Below are positions 4,902 to 10,556 of a stretch of DNA of 64,000 nucleotides, piece by piece (the first letter of the stretch is position 1; every line of letters begins with the position of its first letter). Under the pieces are notes generated by a model, which worked only from the letters and a program-made list of their open reading frames with translations, did no database searches and was not told the origin of the DNA. The DNA is from Candidatus Hinthialibacter antarcticus (GTDB lineage: Bacteria; Hinthialibacterota; Hinthialibacteria; Hinthialibacterales; Hinthialibacteraceae), in assembly GCA_030765645.1 (NCBI GenBank), contig JAVCCE010000063.1:1-64000 (forward strand), written 5' to 3'. Position numbers and translations under genes: made by a program.

Positions 4902-6344
4902 TTAGTCGTCCGCCCCGGAGTCAAGCGGAATCTGATGTTCTTTCATCTTGCGGTAGAGGGTGCGCGTACTGTAACCCAGTATGACGGCGGCGGCTTCTTT
5001 GTCGCCCTTGGTCATCTCGATGGTTTTACGAATCACCACGCCTTCTGACTGCACCACCGAGTACCCCAGCGGAATGGTGATGCGTCCCGCAGAGGTTGTG
5101 GATTCTTCTTCGGGCGCACTGGCGTTGCGAATCAGTTCCGGCAGGTCGTCGATCAAAACGCGGTCGCCTTTGGCGAGAATCACGCCGTGTTCGATGACGT
5201 TTTCCAACTCGCGTACATTGCCCGGCCATGAATAGGCCCCCAACGCTTTGTGTGCATTGACGCCCAGGCCGATGACGTCCTTGCTGTTTTTCCGGGCGTA
5301 TTTTTCGATGAAGTGTTGGGCCAGGCGGGGGATATCGCCTATGCGTTCGCGCAGCGGCGGCAGTTTCAAATTAAACACGTTGATGCGGTAATAGAGGTCT
5401 TCACGAAATTTGGTGTTTTTCACTTCATCCATAAGTTCGCGGTTGGTGGCGGCGATGACGCGCACATCAATCTGGATGGACTTGCCGCTGCCGACCCGTT
5501 CAAAGATGCTCTCTTGTAAAACGCGCAAGAGTTTGACTTGCGCCGATGGACTCATCTCGCCAATTTCATCAAGAAAGATGGTGCCGCCGTCCGCCATTTC
5601 AAAGCGCCCAACCTGGTCTTTATACGCCCCGGTGAATGAACCTTTGTTGTGTCCAAAGAGTTCCGATTCGAGTAGGGTCTCGGGCAGGGCGCCGCAATTG
5701 ACTTTGACCATAGGTTTGTCAGCGCGGTTGCTTAACGCATGGATCGCATTCGCGATCATCTCTTTGCCGGTCCCGGTTTCGCCGGTGATTAACACGGTCG
5801 CGGTACTGGGGGCGATCTGTTCGATTTGGGTAATCACGTTTCGCATCGCCTGGCTTTTGCCGACGATGATATTTTGTGGTTCCAAGCCTTTGAGTTTGTC
5901 TTTCAGTTCTTGAACTTCCAATACCATTTCGTGTGAAGCCAGCGCCTTTTCGACGAAGATTTGTAACTCATGCAGGCGCACCGGCTTGGTGAGGTAATGA
6001 AACGCGCCTGCTTTCATGGCTTCGACGGCGTTGTCGACGGACGCAAACCCCGTCATCAAGATAATGGGAATATTAGGATCGTAGGATTTGATGCTGCGCA
6101 CCAGGCTGATGCCGTCGATGCCCGGCATGACCAAGTCAGTCAACACCAGGTCGTAGCGGTTTTCATGCACCATGCTCAAGCCCTGCTCCGGGGTCAGGGC
6201 GGATTCACAGTCATGCCCCTGGCTTCGCAAGGCGCGAGTTAGTGTTTTCGCCATGGTTTCATCATCATCAACGACGAGTATGCGGGCTTTACGCTTTTGG
6301 GGGGCGTCCTGGATTGTTGCGTCTTGTTCTTCTGAATTATTCAT
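4902..6344 (-). CDS. Sigma-54-dependent response regulator (NtrC/AtoC type)
   Basis: Transcription activator of 480 residues, partner of the kinase encoded just upstream. The receiver domain (about 20-135) has the acidic pocket in VVDDDE and phospho-acceptor Asp70 in LTDLVMPG. The AAA+ domain has Walker A GETGTGKE (188-195), the sigma-54 contact loop as GSFTGA (235-240, a known variant of GAFTGA) and Walker B TIFLDEIGE. A Fis-type helix-turn-helix closes the protein (AAAVILGYSTRTLYRKM). The start at 6344 is chosen because its ATG overlaps the kinase stop in ATGAATAA, an 8-nt overlap typical of coupled two-component genes; a longer frame to 6410 only reads into the kinase gene. Its targets need sigma-54 promoters; none was recognised nearby. 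Confidence 0.92.
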   Translation of the reverse strand: MNNSEEQDATIQDAPQKRKARILVVDDDETMAKTLTRALRSQGHDCESALTPEQGLSMVHENRYDLVLTDLVMPGIDGISLVRSIKSYDPNIPIILMTGFASVDNAVEAMKAGAFHYLTKPVRLHELQIFVEKALASHEMVLEVQELKDKLKGLEPQNIIVGKSQAMRNVITQIEQIAPSTATVLITGETGTGKEMIANAIHALSNRADKPMVKVNCGALPETLLESELFGHNKGSFTGAYKDQVGRFEMADGGTIFLDEIGEMSPSAQVKLLRVLQESIFERVGSGKSIQIDVRVIAATNRELMDEVKNTKFREDLYYRINVFNLKLPPLRERIGDIPRLAQHFIEKYARKNSKDVIGLGVNAHKALGAYSWPGNVRELENVIEHGVILAKGDRVLIDDLPELIRNASAPEEESTTSAGRITIPLGYSVVQSEGVVIRKTIEMTKGDKEAAAVILGYSTRTLYRKMKEHQIPLDSGADD

Positions 6345-7998
6345 GGGCGCTTTGGATGTTTTCGTGGTTTGGAATCGGTAACTGTATGATAATGGACGTG
6401 CCTCGTCCAAGTTCGCTTTTTACTTGAATCTCGCCGCCATGAGCGACAGCGATTTCGCGGGCCAGATATAGCCCCAGTCCGGTACCGCCGGGGCGGCCGG
6501 TTTCGAAGGCGTTAAAGACTTTATCAATCATCTCTTTGGAAATGCCTTTGCCCGTGTCTTGTACTTCAATGACCGCTTGGTTGTCAACTTGTTCGGCTTT
6601 TATCGTAATGGTTCCGCCGTCGCTTAATGCATAGGCGGAGTTCTCAAACAAATTTAATAGCAGACGGCGGAAATGGTCGGTGTCGATTTCAACGTCAATT
6701 GCGTTGACGGCTGGGACGAATTGATAATGGATGTTGTCCCGGCGGATTCGTGTTTGGATTTCTTCATAAATATCTTGTAAAAAACGGTTTAACGGGGTGA
6801 GGGCGCGCTTGGGTTTTTGGATGCGCGATAAAACCAGGTAGTGGTTGACGATCTCGTTCATGCGGTCGACTTCTTTTTGCAAGTCGCTCAGCATGTCGAA
6901 CAGTTCGGCTTGAATCGGTTCGCGAGTGACGGTGTTTTCCGCGTCGAGACACTGCTGGACGCGGTCGCCGATCATGTCAGCGGTCAACGCCATCACGCCC
7001 AGCGGGGTGCGGATCTCATGCGCGACGCCCGCCGTGATTTTCGTCATGGCATGAATTTGTTCCATATTTTTGAGTTTGTTCGCGAGTTGGCGAATCTCGG
7101 TGGTGTCGCGCAAAATGAGCGTGGCGCCGATGACGTTGCCGCGTTCGTTTCTCAATTGCGTCAGGCTGGCGTCTGCGGTAATCGGTTTGCCGCTTTTTGT
7201 GTTCCACTCGGTGGCGTAAAGCGTGCAGGCCCCGTGAGCGGCTGCCTCTTTGCGAATCTGGTCAAATTGTTTGGGATCGCAAATCAGGTCCCGTAGCGAC
7301 TTATCGACGATTTCTAACGTCCGAAACCCGAACATGCGTTGTGCGCCCTGGCTCCAAGTCGAGATGCGGCCATGTTCGTCGAGGCCGACAATTGCGTCTG
7401 ATGCTTCTGACATGATGGACGTCAGCAGGCGGTCTTCCATCCACAGTTTTTGTTCGAGTTTGAGCCGGGCGTCTACCAACTCGCGCGAATAGCGTTCGAT
7501 GTAGGTTTCCATCGCCAATTGCATATCGAGATGAAACACTTTCATCAGCGCCAGTTCAGCCGCTTCAATGCGCTTTGCGTCGTCTTTGAGTTCGGCGCGG
7601 AGGATGGGGAATATAATTTCGCAATATAGGCTATACGCGCCAATGTACCAGCGCGGCTGTAGGCCGATGCGTTCATGAGTTTGGCCAATGCTGCGGCGTT
7701 TGCTGATATAGACGTCGTCGAATTTCGCCTCAAGAATCTCACAAAAATAATGATACTGGGCCGTCTTTAAGCGATTGACGGTTTCAGCGTCGGGGAAAAA
7801 CTGATGGGCCATGCCGGATGAGACAATGGCGTCGTAAAAGCGATCAATAATCTCGTTCAAATGGGGGCGTAATAGCGGAGCGATCTCGAGAATGACGTTA
7901 ATCTCATTCTCTGTGAGGTTTAAATAATTCTGCATGTAGTCGAAGTGCGTCGACTTGCCGGAAAACTGAGTTTTCTCGGTTGCAGACTGTGGCTTCAT
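6337..7998 (-). CDS. Globin-coupled sensor histidine kinase (protoglobin-PAS-HisKA-HATPase)
   Basis: Predicted soluble gas or redox sensor kinase of 553 residues with no membrane segments. Residues about 20-170 form a protoglobin/globin-sensor domain: the block IGQTHERIGLQPRWYIGAY holds the expected proximal haem histidine (His108). A linker helix and a PAS domain follow (about 190-300). The HisKA box GVAHEIRTPLG has phospho-acceptor His near 327, and an HATPase domain follows (LLLNLFENS as N box, DTGKGIS, GGTGLGLYLARE). The family usually senses oxygen or other diatomic gases. ATG at 7998 is preferred over TTG at 8007 because of AGGAT about 10 nt upstream. It is read first in the operon and overlaps the sigma-54 regulator. 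Confidence 0.9.
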   Translation of the reverse strand: MKPQSATEKTQFSGKSTHFDYMQNYLNLTENEINVILEIAPLLRPHLNEIIDRFYDAIVSSGMAHQFFPDAETVNRLKTAQYHYFCEILEAKFDDVYISKRRSIGQTHERIGLQPRWYIGAYSLYCEIIFPILRAELKDDAKRIEAAELALMKVFHLDMQLAMETYIERYSRELVDARLKLEQKLWMEDRLLTSIMSEASDAIVGLDEHGRISTWSQGAQRMFGFRTLEIVDKSLRDLICDPKQFDQIRKEAAAHGACTLYATEWNTKSGKPITADASLTQLRNERGNVIGATLILRDTTEIRQLANKLKNMEQIHAMTKITAGVAHEIRTPLGVMALTADMIGDRVQQCLDAENTVTREPIQAELFDMLSDLQKEVDRMNEIVNHYLVLSRIQKPKRALTPLNRFLQDIYEEIQTRIRRDNIHYQFVPAVNAIDVEIDTDHFRRLLLNLFENSAYALSDGGTITIKAEQVDNQAVIEVQDTGKGISKEMIDKVFNAFETGRPGGTGLGLYLAREIAVAHGGEIQVKSELGRGTSIIIQLPIPNHENIQSAHE

Positions 7999-8304
7999 CA
8001 GGTGCAATCCTAAAATAGGTGGAACGATTGATTTCGAAGATGCAACGCCGAGAGAGGTGATGGGCTGTATTATTGGTTAAAAACGGGGCGTTTCATAGGG
8101 CGGCGCTGAAAATGAATGCTTCGATTGACAAAAGTGACAATCTTGTAATTCATTAAATATCAATATATTAGGTTTGTTTCAATAAGATTGATATTAGGCG
8201 AAGCGAAGGCGGGGTTATCTGAAAAGGGCGCAAGAATCTCTGTGAATACCCTGAAATAGAAAATAATTTAATTTTACTAAATTTATATTTTTTGTCAGAT
8301 TGGG
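7999..8304. other. Non-coding leader and spacer upstream of the kinase operon
   Basis: No credible gene was found. The part nearest the kinase (7999-8100) is the probable 5' leader of the minus-strand operon. From about 8100 the sequence turns AT-rich (for example 8150-8200 and 8255-8300). No clear -24/-12 element was found in either direction. Confidence 0.5.
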
Positions 8305-8332
8305 GTTGCAAAAAATGGAATTCTGGTATAAA
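8305..8332 (+). promoter_or_regulatory. Probable promoter of the structured RNA at 8339
   Basis: GTTGCA (8305-8310) and TATAAA (8327-8332) are spaced 16 bp apart. The predicted start of transcription, 6-7 nt downstream, falls at about 8339, exactly where the outer stem of the RNA structure begins (GGCAAGACAGG). This coincidence is the main support. Confidence 0.5.
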
Positions 8333-8338
8333 AATAAA

Positions 8339-8444
8339 GGCAAGACAGGGATCACTGTTGAAGAAGCGGTTTCATCCAACTCTCGTAAGGGCCTACCTTG
8401 CGGGAGTTTTTTAATGGACAAACCATTCAGATCCTGTCTTGCCT
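8339..8444 (+). ncRNA. Candidate structured small RNA or leader RNA
   Basis: The two ends pair: AGGCAAGACAGGgATC (8338-8353) with GATCCTGTCTTGCCT (8430-8444), leaving one bulged G. Inside are two hairpins. One has a 14-bp stem with two G-U pairs (8378-8408) followed by six T's. A small one pairs AATGG with CCATT (8413-8427). Together they form a multibranch junction of about 106 nt. A promoter-like element ends 6 nt upstream. The inner hairpin plus T-run has the form of an intrinsic terminator, so the RNA could be a leader that switches between termination and the closed junction. No protein gene follows on this strand; the simple-sequence tract does. It matches no RNA family I recognise (not SRP, 6S, tmRNA or RNase P). 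Confidence 0.5.
8378..8412 (+). terminator. Intrinsic terminator inside the candidate RNA
   Basis: AACTCTCGTAAGG pairs with the downstream ACCTTGCGGGAGTT arm across a short loop (two G-U wobbles), with TTTTTT at 8407-8412. It lies between the two arms of the larger outer stem, so transcription ending here would prevent that stem from closing. Confidence 0.55.
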
Positions 8445-8489
8445 CACTTGAAAACGATTCCTGACTCCAAAACTTTCGTTCCGCCGAGC

Positions 8490-9020
8490 ATTGGCTCTGT
8501 TGTCGTACTTAGGTGTCGTAACTGATGCCGTACAGATGCCGTGTCAAAGATGTCGTGCCCGTTGCGATTCTGTTGTTGTGTCCCGGTGCGTAGCCTTGAT
8601 GTCGTGCTGCTGAGCGTTTTGTGTATGCTGATGCTGTTTCTTGATGCCGTACAAGTTGCCTTGTCTGTTGTGAATTCCGCTGTCGTACTGGTGTCGTATC
8701 TGTTGTGTTGTCAAAGATGCCGTACTGTTGAGAATTCTGATGTCGTACCTGATGCTGTTTCTTGATGCCGTACAAGTTGCCTTGTCTGTTGTGAATTCTG
8801 CTGTCGTACAAGTTGTAGTGTCTGTTGTGAATGCTGATGTCGTGTCTGATGAATTGCCTAAGATGCCGTACTGTTGCGAATTCTGTTGCCGTAACCGATG
8901 TTGTTCCAAGGTGTCGTGCTGTTGTCGTGACTGATGCTGATTCGTGGTGTCGTACTGATGTTTAGCCTGTTGTGTAAGTGCTCAGTCTGTTGTTGCCCTG
9001 GTTGTGTTGTCAAAGGTGTT
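8490..9020. repeat. Strand-biased simple-sequence tract (TGTCGT / GATGCCGT words)
   Basis: About 530 bp is built from shuffled short words (TGTCGTACT, GATGCCGT, TGTTGTGAATTC, CTGATGC). The plus strand is rich in G and T and poor in A and C. Because the complement is CA-rich, long stop-free frames appear by composition alone: the minus-strand frames at 8509-8811 and 8544-8909 give only Gln/His/Thr/Asn-rich low-complexity peptides in two overlapping frames, so neither is taken as a gene. It lies immediately downstream of the candidate RNA. Possible explanations are a decayed repeat array, an unstructured CA-rich transcript on the minus strand, or a degenerate repeat-protein gene. Confidence 0.7.
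8630..8809. repeat. 59-bp direct repeat within the simple-sequence tract
   Basis: Bases 8630-8688 and 8751-8809 match at 58 of 59 positions (the only change is C versus T within GAATTCYGCTG). The copies are 121 bp apart. The near-identity shows recent tandem duplication or gene-conversion-like exchange inside an otherwise shuffled tract. Confidence 0.9.
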
Positions 9021-9389
9021 GGCGAAACTAGGACGCTCGGGTCAGGACCGTAAAGTGCTTCTTTGTATCCTCCTGCAATTCCATTTCGCGATTTGTCAGT
9101 AGGTGAGTGAGTCGAAGAAGTGTCAATCGCAATCGGGTATATCTATTTGCAGGTTGTGTGCCAAAGTCTGGCATAGGTGATGTTTTTAATAAGTTTTTAA
9201 GTGGAGAAGCATCTATCATCAATTTCTATAGCATGTTACATGGTTATCTTTTTTGTGAATTCGATTATTTTCCTTCCGATTATTTAAAGTTTTTGATTGG
9301 TAATATCGTAATTTTTTGACAACTTTGACAATGGATTTAAGTGGGTCATGTCACCCAAGTCAGAAATAGCCAAATTTTGTTTGAACGGT
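9021..9389. other. AT-rich intergenic stretch without a credible gene
   Basis: Two short opposing frames (minus 9028-9222, plus 9107-9319) lack ribosome sites, start at non-ATG codons or overlap each other, and resemble no family. The segment 9180-9330 is clearly AT-rich. Nothing else was recognised. Confidence 0.5.
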
Positions 9390-10499
9390 TTACTCTTGTT
9401 GTAGTGATAATCGCCGCCAGGGGACGCGGTTTTTTGATTCTCGGGAGTAAACGGCCTGAAATCCATCGCCTTTTCTATTCATCTGACCGTTCTGCCACTC
9501 ATAAAAGAACCCTGTGATGGAATACTGCTGGGGGGAACGCTCTAGGTAGGCTTCCTCAAAAAAGACTTCTCCTGCTGTGATCCATATTAAATTGCCGTCG
9601 ATTGCAACCCCAACATGGGGGCGGTGTAAATAAACCTGGCTCGGCTTCTGGTCACGCACATGATAGACGCTTCCGAGTATAAACGTATTAGAATCAGGTG
9701 TTTCTGGGCTGATGACCAGGTTCCAGCCAAAGCCGTCGCCAATCCAGGCGTATTGCAGGGCATGTATATATAGTGTGATGTTCTCTTGTTGAATCTTGTA
9801 CGGCGGCGAATATTGTTCAGTCTGTGACCATTCATGGTCGACGGGATTTTCTTCCCATAAGCCATACCAGGCGCCAGCGAAAGCCTGAAACGAATCCAGC
9901 CCGGATTGAAGAGATACACCGTCTTTCAGCGCTTGCGTTAGTGTTTTGTCAGAAATGTCAAAGCGGTCAAATCCATAGGGAGCCTCTAAAATGGGAGCGA
10001 CGCTCTCTTTGAAGCCGATGATTTCTTTCACCAGATAAATCAGTTGGTTAGTATCATTATTGTATAGAGAACGGCGAAAGCGTTCGGCCTCAATGGCGCC
10101 GTCTTGCATACGGGCGAATCCATCAGATGGCATGGGCTTAGAGAAACCCGGGCCTTTATTTTCAGGGATGAGCCAATGGGTTTTCGCGAGCGCCTGTAAT
10201 TGTGGAAATCGCCATTGCCCGGCGGCTTGAATGGCGTGGGCTGCGCCGTTCATACGAAAACTGCCCGGCGGACGCGAAATGGAGGCTTCGTAGGCGTAGT
10301 AACCCCAAAAAAGCGAACGGACGACAAACCAACCGATTGCGATATAGAAAAGCAGCAGCCCGTGTTGCTTGTTCAATTGAAGAAGGATTGGTGGGTTCAC
10401 CTTGCGTAGAATGAAGATGAAGCCCGCCATAATCAGTAGCGTGATGACAAATGGGCCCGCACAGTCGCGAAGCAATGAAAGAACGATTTGTATTTGCAT
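9390..10499 (-). CDS. Membrane-anchored protein of unknown function
   Basis: I do not recognise this protein. It has 369 residues. Two N-terminal membrane segments (about 12-30, FVITLLIMAGFIFIL, and about 42-62, LLLFYIAIGWFVV) are followed by a soluble region of about 300 residues. That region is rich in Trp and Tyr, with blocks such as FAGAWYGLWEENPVDHEW and HVGVAIDGNLIWITAGEVFFEEAY, suggesting a beta-rich extracytoplasmic domain. ATG at 10499 is preferred; a GTG start at 10523 would add eight residues, and neither has a clear ribosome site. It is flanked by the simple-sequence tract downstream and a dispersed repeat upstream, and appears to be transcribed alone. Confidence 0.7.
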   Translation of the reverse strand: MQIQIVLSLLRDCAGPFVITLLIMAGFIFILRKVNPPILLQLNKQHGLLLFYIAIGWFVVRSLFWGYYAYEASISRPPGSFRMNGAAHAIQAAGQWRFPQLQALAKTHWLIPENKGPGFSKPMPSDGFARMQDGAIEAERFRRSLYNNDTNQLIYLVKEIIGFKESVAPILEAPYGFDRFDISDKTLTQALKDGVSLQSGLDSFQAFAGAWYGLWEENPVDHEWSQTEQYSPPYKIQQENITLYIHALQYAWIGDGFGWNLVISPETPDSNTFILGSVYHVRDQKPSQVYLHRPHVGVAIDGNLIWITAGEVFFEEAYLERSPQQYSITGFFYEWQNGQMNRKGDGFQAVYSRESKNRVPWRRLSLQQE

Positions 10500-10556
10500 G
10501 ATTGAATCATAGAGGATGCTCACAGGATTGCAAAATTTGAATTGAGATTTTTATAA

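Follow-up and report, generated by a model that had tools for sequence, protein, structure and literature searches.

Among the described systems closest to the locus considered here, CsrB and RsmZ carry multiple GGA motifs, often in the form ANGGA and in hairpin loops. The gene for CrcZ lies next to cbrAB; its product is a decoy whose synthesis depends on RpoN and is activated by CbrB (PMC8395346, PMC8871633); according to one review, the CbrAB–CrcZ arrangement is unique to the Pseudomonadaceae (PMC8871633). The 64,000 nucleotides of DNA that we analysed, from the uncultured lineage of Candidatus Hinthialibacter antarcticus (contig JAVCCE010000063.1; hereafter 'the window'), contain what appears from its sequence to be an RNA 'sponge' of an undescribed kind. 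We put at roughly 0.6 the probability that the feature reported earlier, at 8338–8444, belongs, as its 3' domain, to a minus-strand, sponge-like RNA of ∼0.8 kb, controlled by a globin kinase, an NtrC-type regulator and sigma-54, and serving to titrate a protein. In window coordinates, the elements of the locus are:

4902–6410, minus strand: NtrC-family response regulator with receiver, sigma-54 activation and Fis HTH domains (Pfam)
6340–8007, minus strand: histidine kinase with protoglobin and PAS domains (Pfam)
8126–8139, strand not assigned: second copy of half of the operator, TGTCA-N4-TGTCA, upstream of the kinase operon
8306–8332, plus strand: possible sigma-70 promoter, TTGCAA-15-TATAAA, not evident in G001, G002 or G005
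8325–9137, minus strand: predicted non-coding RNA, about 813 nt, its ends inferred from the promoter and a T-rich tract
8338–8444, minus strand: 3' closing-stem domain (the reported feature), then a T-rich tract; stem in four of five genomes
8378–8414, plus strand: intrinsic-terminator-like hairpin inside the stem, with a counterpart in G004 only
8497–9025, minus strand: degenerate array of 12–13-nt repeats, GUACGRCA(U/A)C, marked by CANC excess and 12-nt autocorrelation
9149–9164, minus strand: predicted sigma-54 (–24/–12) promoter, TTGGCACACAACCTGC, conserved in all five loci
9317–9353, minus strand: putative operator, TGACA-N18-TGTCA-N4-TGTCA, with the same boxes in all five genomes

The reported feature is built on a perfect 12-nt inverted repeat with arms at 8338–8349 and 8433–8444. 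Beyond a one-base bulge ATC and GAT are added, giving a closing stem (8338–8353 with 8430–8444) of 15 bp. Nested in it on the plus strand are a terminator-like hairpin at 8378–8408 (13 pairs closing a 5-nt loop, with a T-run that reaches about 8412) and a second hairpin, AATGG-acaaa-CCATT, at 8413–8427. All three elements had been described in an earlier, sequence-only reading of this DNA, and all are present: the plus strand folds with a minimum free energy of –51.3 kcal/mol, compared with –28.1 ± 3.6 for shuffled sequences (z = –6.5). The fold of the minus strand is significant too (z = –4.6 versus shuffles). No known family had been recognized, and Rfam covariance searches at gathering and relaxed thresholds confirm this: no family was matched at gathering score, and the sub-threshold hits were chance ones. 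A MITE or other mobile element was considered and ruled out; the element occurs in single copy in its genome, and no target duplication was seen.

The sequence-only reading had also called for a search for homologues. At the nucleotide level this yields none, the 161–171-nt element finding no match by DNA similarity elsewhere in its own genome, in 60 relatives or in plasmids. Since neither nucleotide similarity nor Rfam provided a homologue, synteny was used instead: the kinase and the protein encoded at 9390–10523 were searched for in 14 genomes of the phylum, and the intergenic regions were then read. Four homologues came to light in this way, and the genomes compared below are accordingly the window (G000), G001, G002, G004 and G005, members of one family that appear to be metagenome assemblies. 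The 9390–10523 protein (minus strand) is uncharacterized, has no Pfam match, and is present in all six family genomes at 32–38% identity; it lies near a MatE transporter gene in the window and in G002, and in G005 it is located elsewhere, away from the RNA.

In the five regions, the minus-strand –24/–12 elements are TTGGCACACAACCTGC, TTGGCACACCCCCTGC, TTGGCACCCCATTTGC, TTGGCATAATTAATGC and TTGGCACACCACTTGC, and upstream of each lies a three-box operator of the general form TGWCA-N17/18-TGWCA-N4-TGWCA, with box spacings of 22–23 and 9 nt. The boxes of the window are at 9353–9349, 9330–9326 and 9321–9317. The distance from operator to –24 element is about 152 nt (128 nt in G005). A pattern combining operator and promoter has exactly four matches in the 14 genomes, all at the RNA locus (G000, G001, G002 and G004), and the reversed-control pattern has none; G005 falls outside the combined pattern, its promoter being deviant. 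A count over 1.26 Mb of the window's genome gives a single copy of the three-box operator. A sigma-54 regulon is indicated by the element of TGGCAC-N5-TTGC type together with encoded RpoN (found in 13 of the 14 phylum genomes) and an encoded enhancer-binding protein. We propose that the NtrC-type regulator encoded nearby binds this operator. Boxes paired at 9-nt spacing also lie ahead of the kinase gene: in the window, in G002, in G005 and, degenerate, in G004. This suggests that the kinase operon is autoregulated through TGWCA boxes. Two further observations concern such regions in relatives. A promoter of the same sigma-54 type stands ahead of the glutamine synthetase gene glnA in G003 (L069, G003:C1:167126), a sixth member of the family. 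And in G005 a long inverted repeat (CTCCCCCCAAGCTTGGGGGGAG...; L061 1274–1376), probably a mobile or palindromic element, lies just outside the operator of the RNA and yields spurious miRNA model hits.

The RNA and the globin kinase occur together in five of five genomes, and G003 has neither. A contig search with the kinase as query turned up a single close relative, G002, in which the arrangement of kinase and NtrC-type regulator recurs. The globin domain of the kinase matches HemAT (E = 2e-16), its heme-ligand region, THERIGLQPRWY, aligns with IHLRIGLLPKWY of HemAT, and the heme-ligand histidine is invariant among the four kinases aligned; a gas or redox signal is therefore likely. In G001 the kinase gene is on a contig other than that of the RNA (L065; G001:C204:280-1848), its frame contains one TGA, and operator boxes were not found within 280 nt upstream.

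Between predicted start and terminator, the putative RNAs span 813 (G000), 904 (G004), 737 (G002), 519 (G005) and 624 nt (G001). Their 5' part is filled with a repeat, GUACGGCAUC, one per 12–13 nt, amounting to 18–58 CANC units per RNA. Observed CANC counts exceed expectation in every case: 56 versus 19 in the window (counted upstream of the closing stem), 58 versus 16 in G004, 31 versus 8 in G002, 20 versus 5 in G005, and 18 versus 5 in G001. TACGGCA, RCAWC and CATC exceed all 200 dinucleotide shuffles in each of the five genomes, and for the top motif words reverse-complement copies are essentially lacking: the array is directional. Dense arrays occur only at the RNA locus, in 5 of the 14 phylum genomes. 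Compared with shuffles, the arrays of three genomes have less structure (z = +2.1 to +3.3) and that of G001 somewhat more (z = –1.9); that of the window is neutral. Known protein sites offer no match for the repeats: in the repeat regions the CsrA core, GGA, is at or below shuffle level and ANGGA is found 0–1 times per RNA, and the A-rich motifs of the Hfq distal face are not enriched, (AAN)3 occurring 0–1 times per RNA and (ARN)4 in none of the five. CsrA and Hfq are both encoded in the window's genome; CsrA (PF02599) is encoded in 13 of the 14 phylum genomes, and no copy was detected in G001, one of the RNA-bearing genomes.

How such repeats act can be construed in other ways. They are direct, and RNA-strand frames stay open for 145–158 codons in two genomes, so they might function as DNA, whether as a partition site or as an array of binding sites, or else code for a repetitive peptide, the stem then being incidental. 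We consider this highly improbable. The repeats are bracketed by a conserved promoter and by terminators, the longest stop-free stretch in G001 is 76 codons, and spacings of 11, 12, 13 and 14 nt break the frame. Moreover, the genomes resemble one another to the same degree in every frame of either strand, with no reading frame preferentially conserved; because this resemblance is independent of frame and the repeats are not spaced in multiples of three, coding by the RNA is unlikely. Alternatively, the minus-strand RNA could act by base pairing, with the repeats, taken as CAUC or CAAC preceded by GUACGG, repeating one antisense seed many times against a single mRNA or mRNA family. The 10-mer core is indeed repeated, directional and single-stranded, and CA(U/A/C)C would be complementary to G(A/U/G)UG, that is, to G followed by a start codon. 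Yet CAGC units are present as well, a single seed would seldom be needed in tens of copies, and the complement GATGCCG occurs 0 times between –80 and +15 of 851 predicted genes (1.26 Mb). Base pairing seems to us unlikely. The reading that we prefer, titration of a protein, is probable by analogy with CrcZ. It has against it the lack of resemblance to any known protein site and the result that, over the same 1.26 Mb of the window's genome, the motif and its complement show no enrichment near start codons.

The best explanation of the reported stem is that it forms the 3' end of this minus-strand RNA. One closing arm adjoins the 3' terminator (G004, G002 and G001) or the T-rich tract (window), and its partner lies 110–343 nt upstream. 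Pairing as good or better arises in 2 of 300 shuffles for the window, and in 1, 23 and 1 of 300 for G004, G002 and G001, respectively, so the evidence for a stem in G002 is weak; in G005 (167 of 300) a closing stem was not detected. The arms are AGGCAAGACAGG in the window, AGGCGAAGCAGG in G004, GGTAAGAAGGAA in G002 (with G-U at the end) and GGGTAAGGAGAA in G001. They were compared pair by pair, by hand, because the MAFFT alignment gapped one arm. Between the window and G004, 3 of 12 pairs are changed on both sides, and between the window and G001, seven of twelve, in neither case with any pair broken. As regards the covariation that the sequence-only reading had suggested examining, the arms differ between genomes and still pair in four of five. 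With homologues and compensatory changes in a conserved stem, its candidate structured non-coding RNA is borne out. In relatives an RNA-strand terminator hairpin follows the stem (AAAAAAGGCTCTCTTCGGAGAGCCTTTTTT in G001); the window has the T-rich tract after the stem and no separate terminator hairpin. The closed domains of G002 and G001 (L060, L063) contain an additional conserved hairpin-like element, ACAGUGCAGACCG, which the window does not have.

Strand and mechanism are where we depart from the sequence-only reading. It had placed a transcript start at 8339 on the plus strand and interpreted the terminator and closing stem as mutually exclusive, in the manner of a riboswitch or attenuator. 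A promoter can be read there: TTGCAA at 8306–8311, 15 nt, and TGG-TATAAA at 8324–8332, with +1 at 8339. A standard scan does not report it, owing to the 15-nt spacer and to a –10 element ending in A. The terminator is a strong one, and in the window the plus strand folds better than the minus, because on the minus strand the terminator hairpin has A·C mismatches in place of its wobble pairs. But the promoter kept in all five genomes is on the opposite strand, and the nested terminator is confined to the window and G004, being absent from G001, G002 and G005; attenuation is therefore not a conserved function. In other genomes the closed domain has grown to about 310–340 nt. No protein gene follows on the plus strand, as had been noted, and both flanking genes lie on the minus strand. 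Folding energy does not single out a strand: plus is better in the window and G001, neither in G002, and by z-score the RNA strand in G004. A plus-strand riboswitch or attenuator is, in our estimation, very unlikely, its strand and mechanism both probably wrong. The same promoter-like and terminator sequences, at similar places in the window and G004, could instead produce a small plus-strand antisense RNA (about 8339–8414) that controls the 3' domain of the minus-strand RNA in these two species. The promoter is weak, however, the A-run and T-run may be incidental, and the other three genomes have nothing equivalent, and we regard such an RNA as rather improbable.

The promoter, the operator, the array and the co-occurrence of RNA and kinase are strongly supported by sequence conservation; that the locus is transcribed, regulated by the kinase–regulator pair and acts by titration, we infer. 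In the mechanism that we envisage, the protoglobin (heme-binding) histidine kinase would respond to a gas or redox signal and phosphorylate the NtrC-type regulator encoded beside it. The regulator would bind the TGWCA boxes and activate sigma-54 polymerase at 9164–9149, and through the same boxes it probably controls its own operon too. Tens of short, single-stranded GUACGGCAUC motifs would then act like CrcZ or RsmZ and titrate an RNA-binding protein, and the 3' closing stem would cap the RNA and protect its end.

Among known systems, the likeness to terminator/antiterminator riboswitches consists in a T-run hairpin overlapped by a larger stem on the plus strand of the window; here this arrangement is not conserved, no downstream gene is on the same strand, and there is no conserved ligand core. 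CsrB and RsmZ, under GacSA, are likewise sponge RNAs controlled by a two-component system and rich in repeated motifs, and CsrA is encoded here, but GGA is not enriched, the predicted promoter is of the sigma-54 rather than the sigma-70 type, and the motifs lie outside hairpin loops. The arrangement parallels that of CrcZ, CrcY and CrcX, with CbrAB, of the Pseudomonadaceae, which share the sigma-54 promoter, the NtrC-type regulator and the adjoining two-component genes (PMC8395346, PMC8871633), as well as a non-coding RNA of a few hundred nucleotides with short repeated motifs. As for CrcZ and CrcY, a predicted sigma-54 promoter with upstream activator sites adjoins an NtrC-type two-component operon. 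The differences are several. The sensor is a heme globin–PAS kinase, in place of CbrA with its transporter domain; the repeats are GUACGGCAUC every 12–13 nt, without AAN/ARN enrichment, in place of A-rich Hfq motifs; the RNA is upstream of the operon; the phylum is unrelated; and the Rfam model of CrcZ finds no match even at relaxed thresholds. Our verdict, by analogy, is that this RNA would be CrcZ-like in its working, and is not a member of the CrcZ family. That it founds a new family of sigma-54-dependent sponge RNAs, independent of CrcZ, in which post-transcriptional control is linked to a heme-based gas sensor by way of an RNA-binding protein that recognizes a novel periodic motif, GUACGGCAUC, with one unit per 12–13 nt, is a tentative proposal, to which we give somewhat less than even odds. 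If true, an uncultured phylum would possess an independent counterpart of CbrAB–CrcZ with a different sensor and a different repeat motif, pointing to an RNA-binding activity that reads a 12-nt repeat, for which synthetic repeat RNA, (GUACGGCAUCAG)n, could serve as pull-down bait, and suggesting that the pairing of a two-component system with a sigma-54 sponge RNA is a design that recurs.
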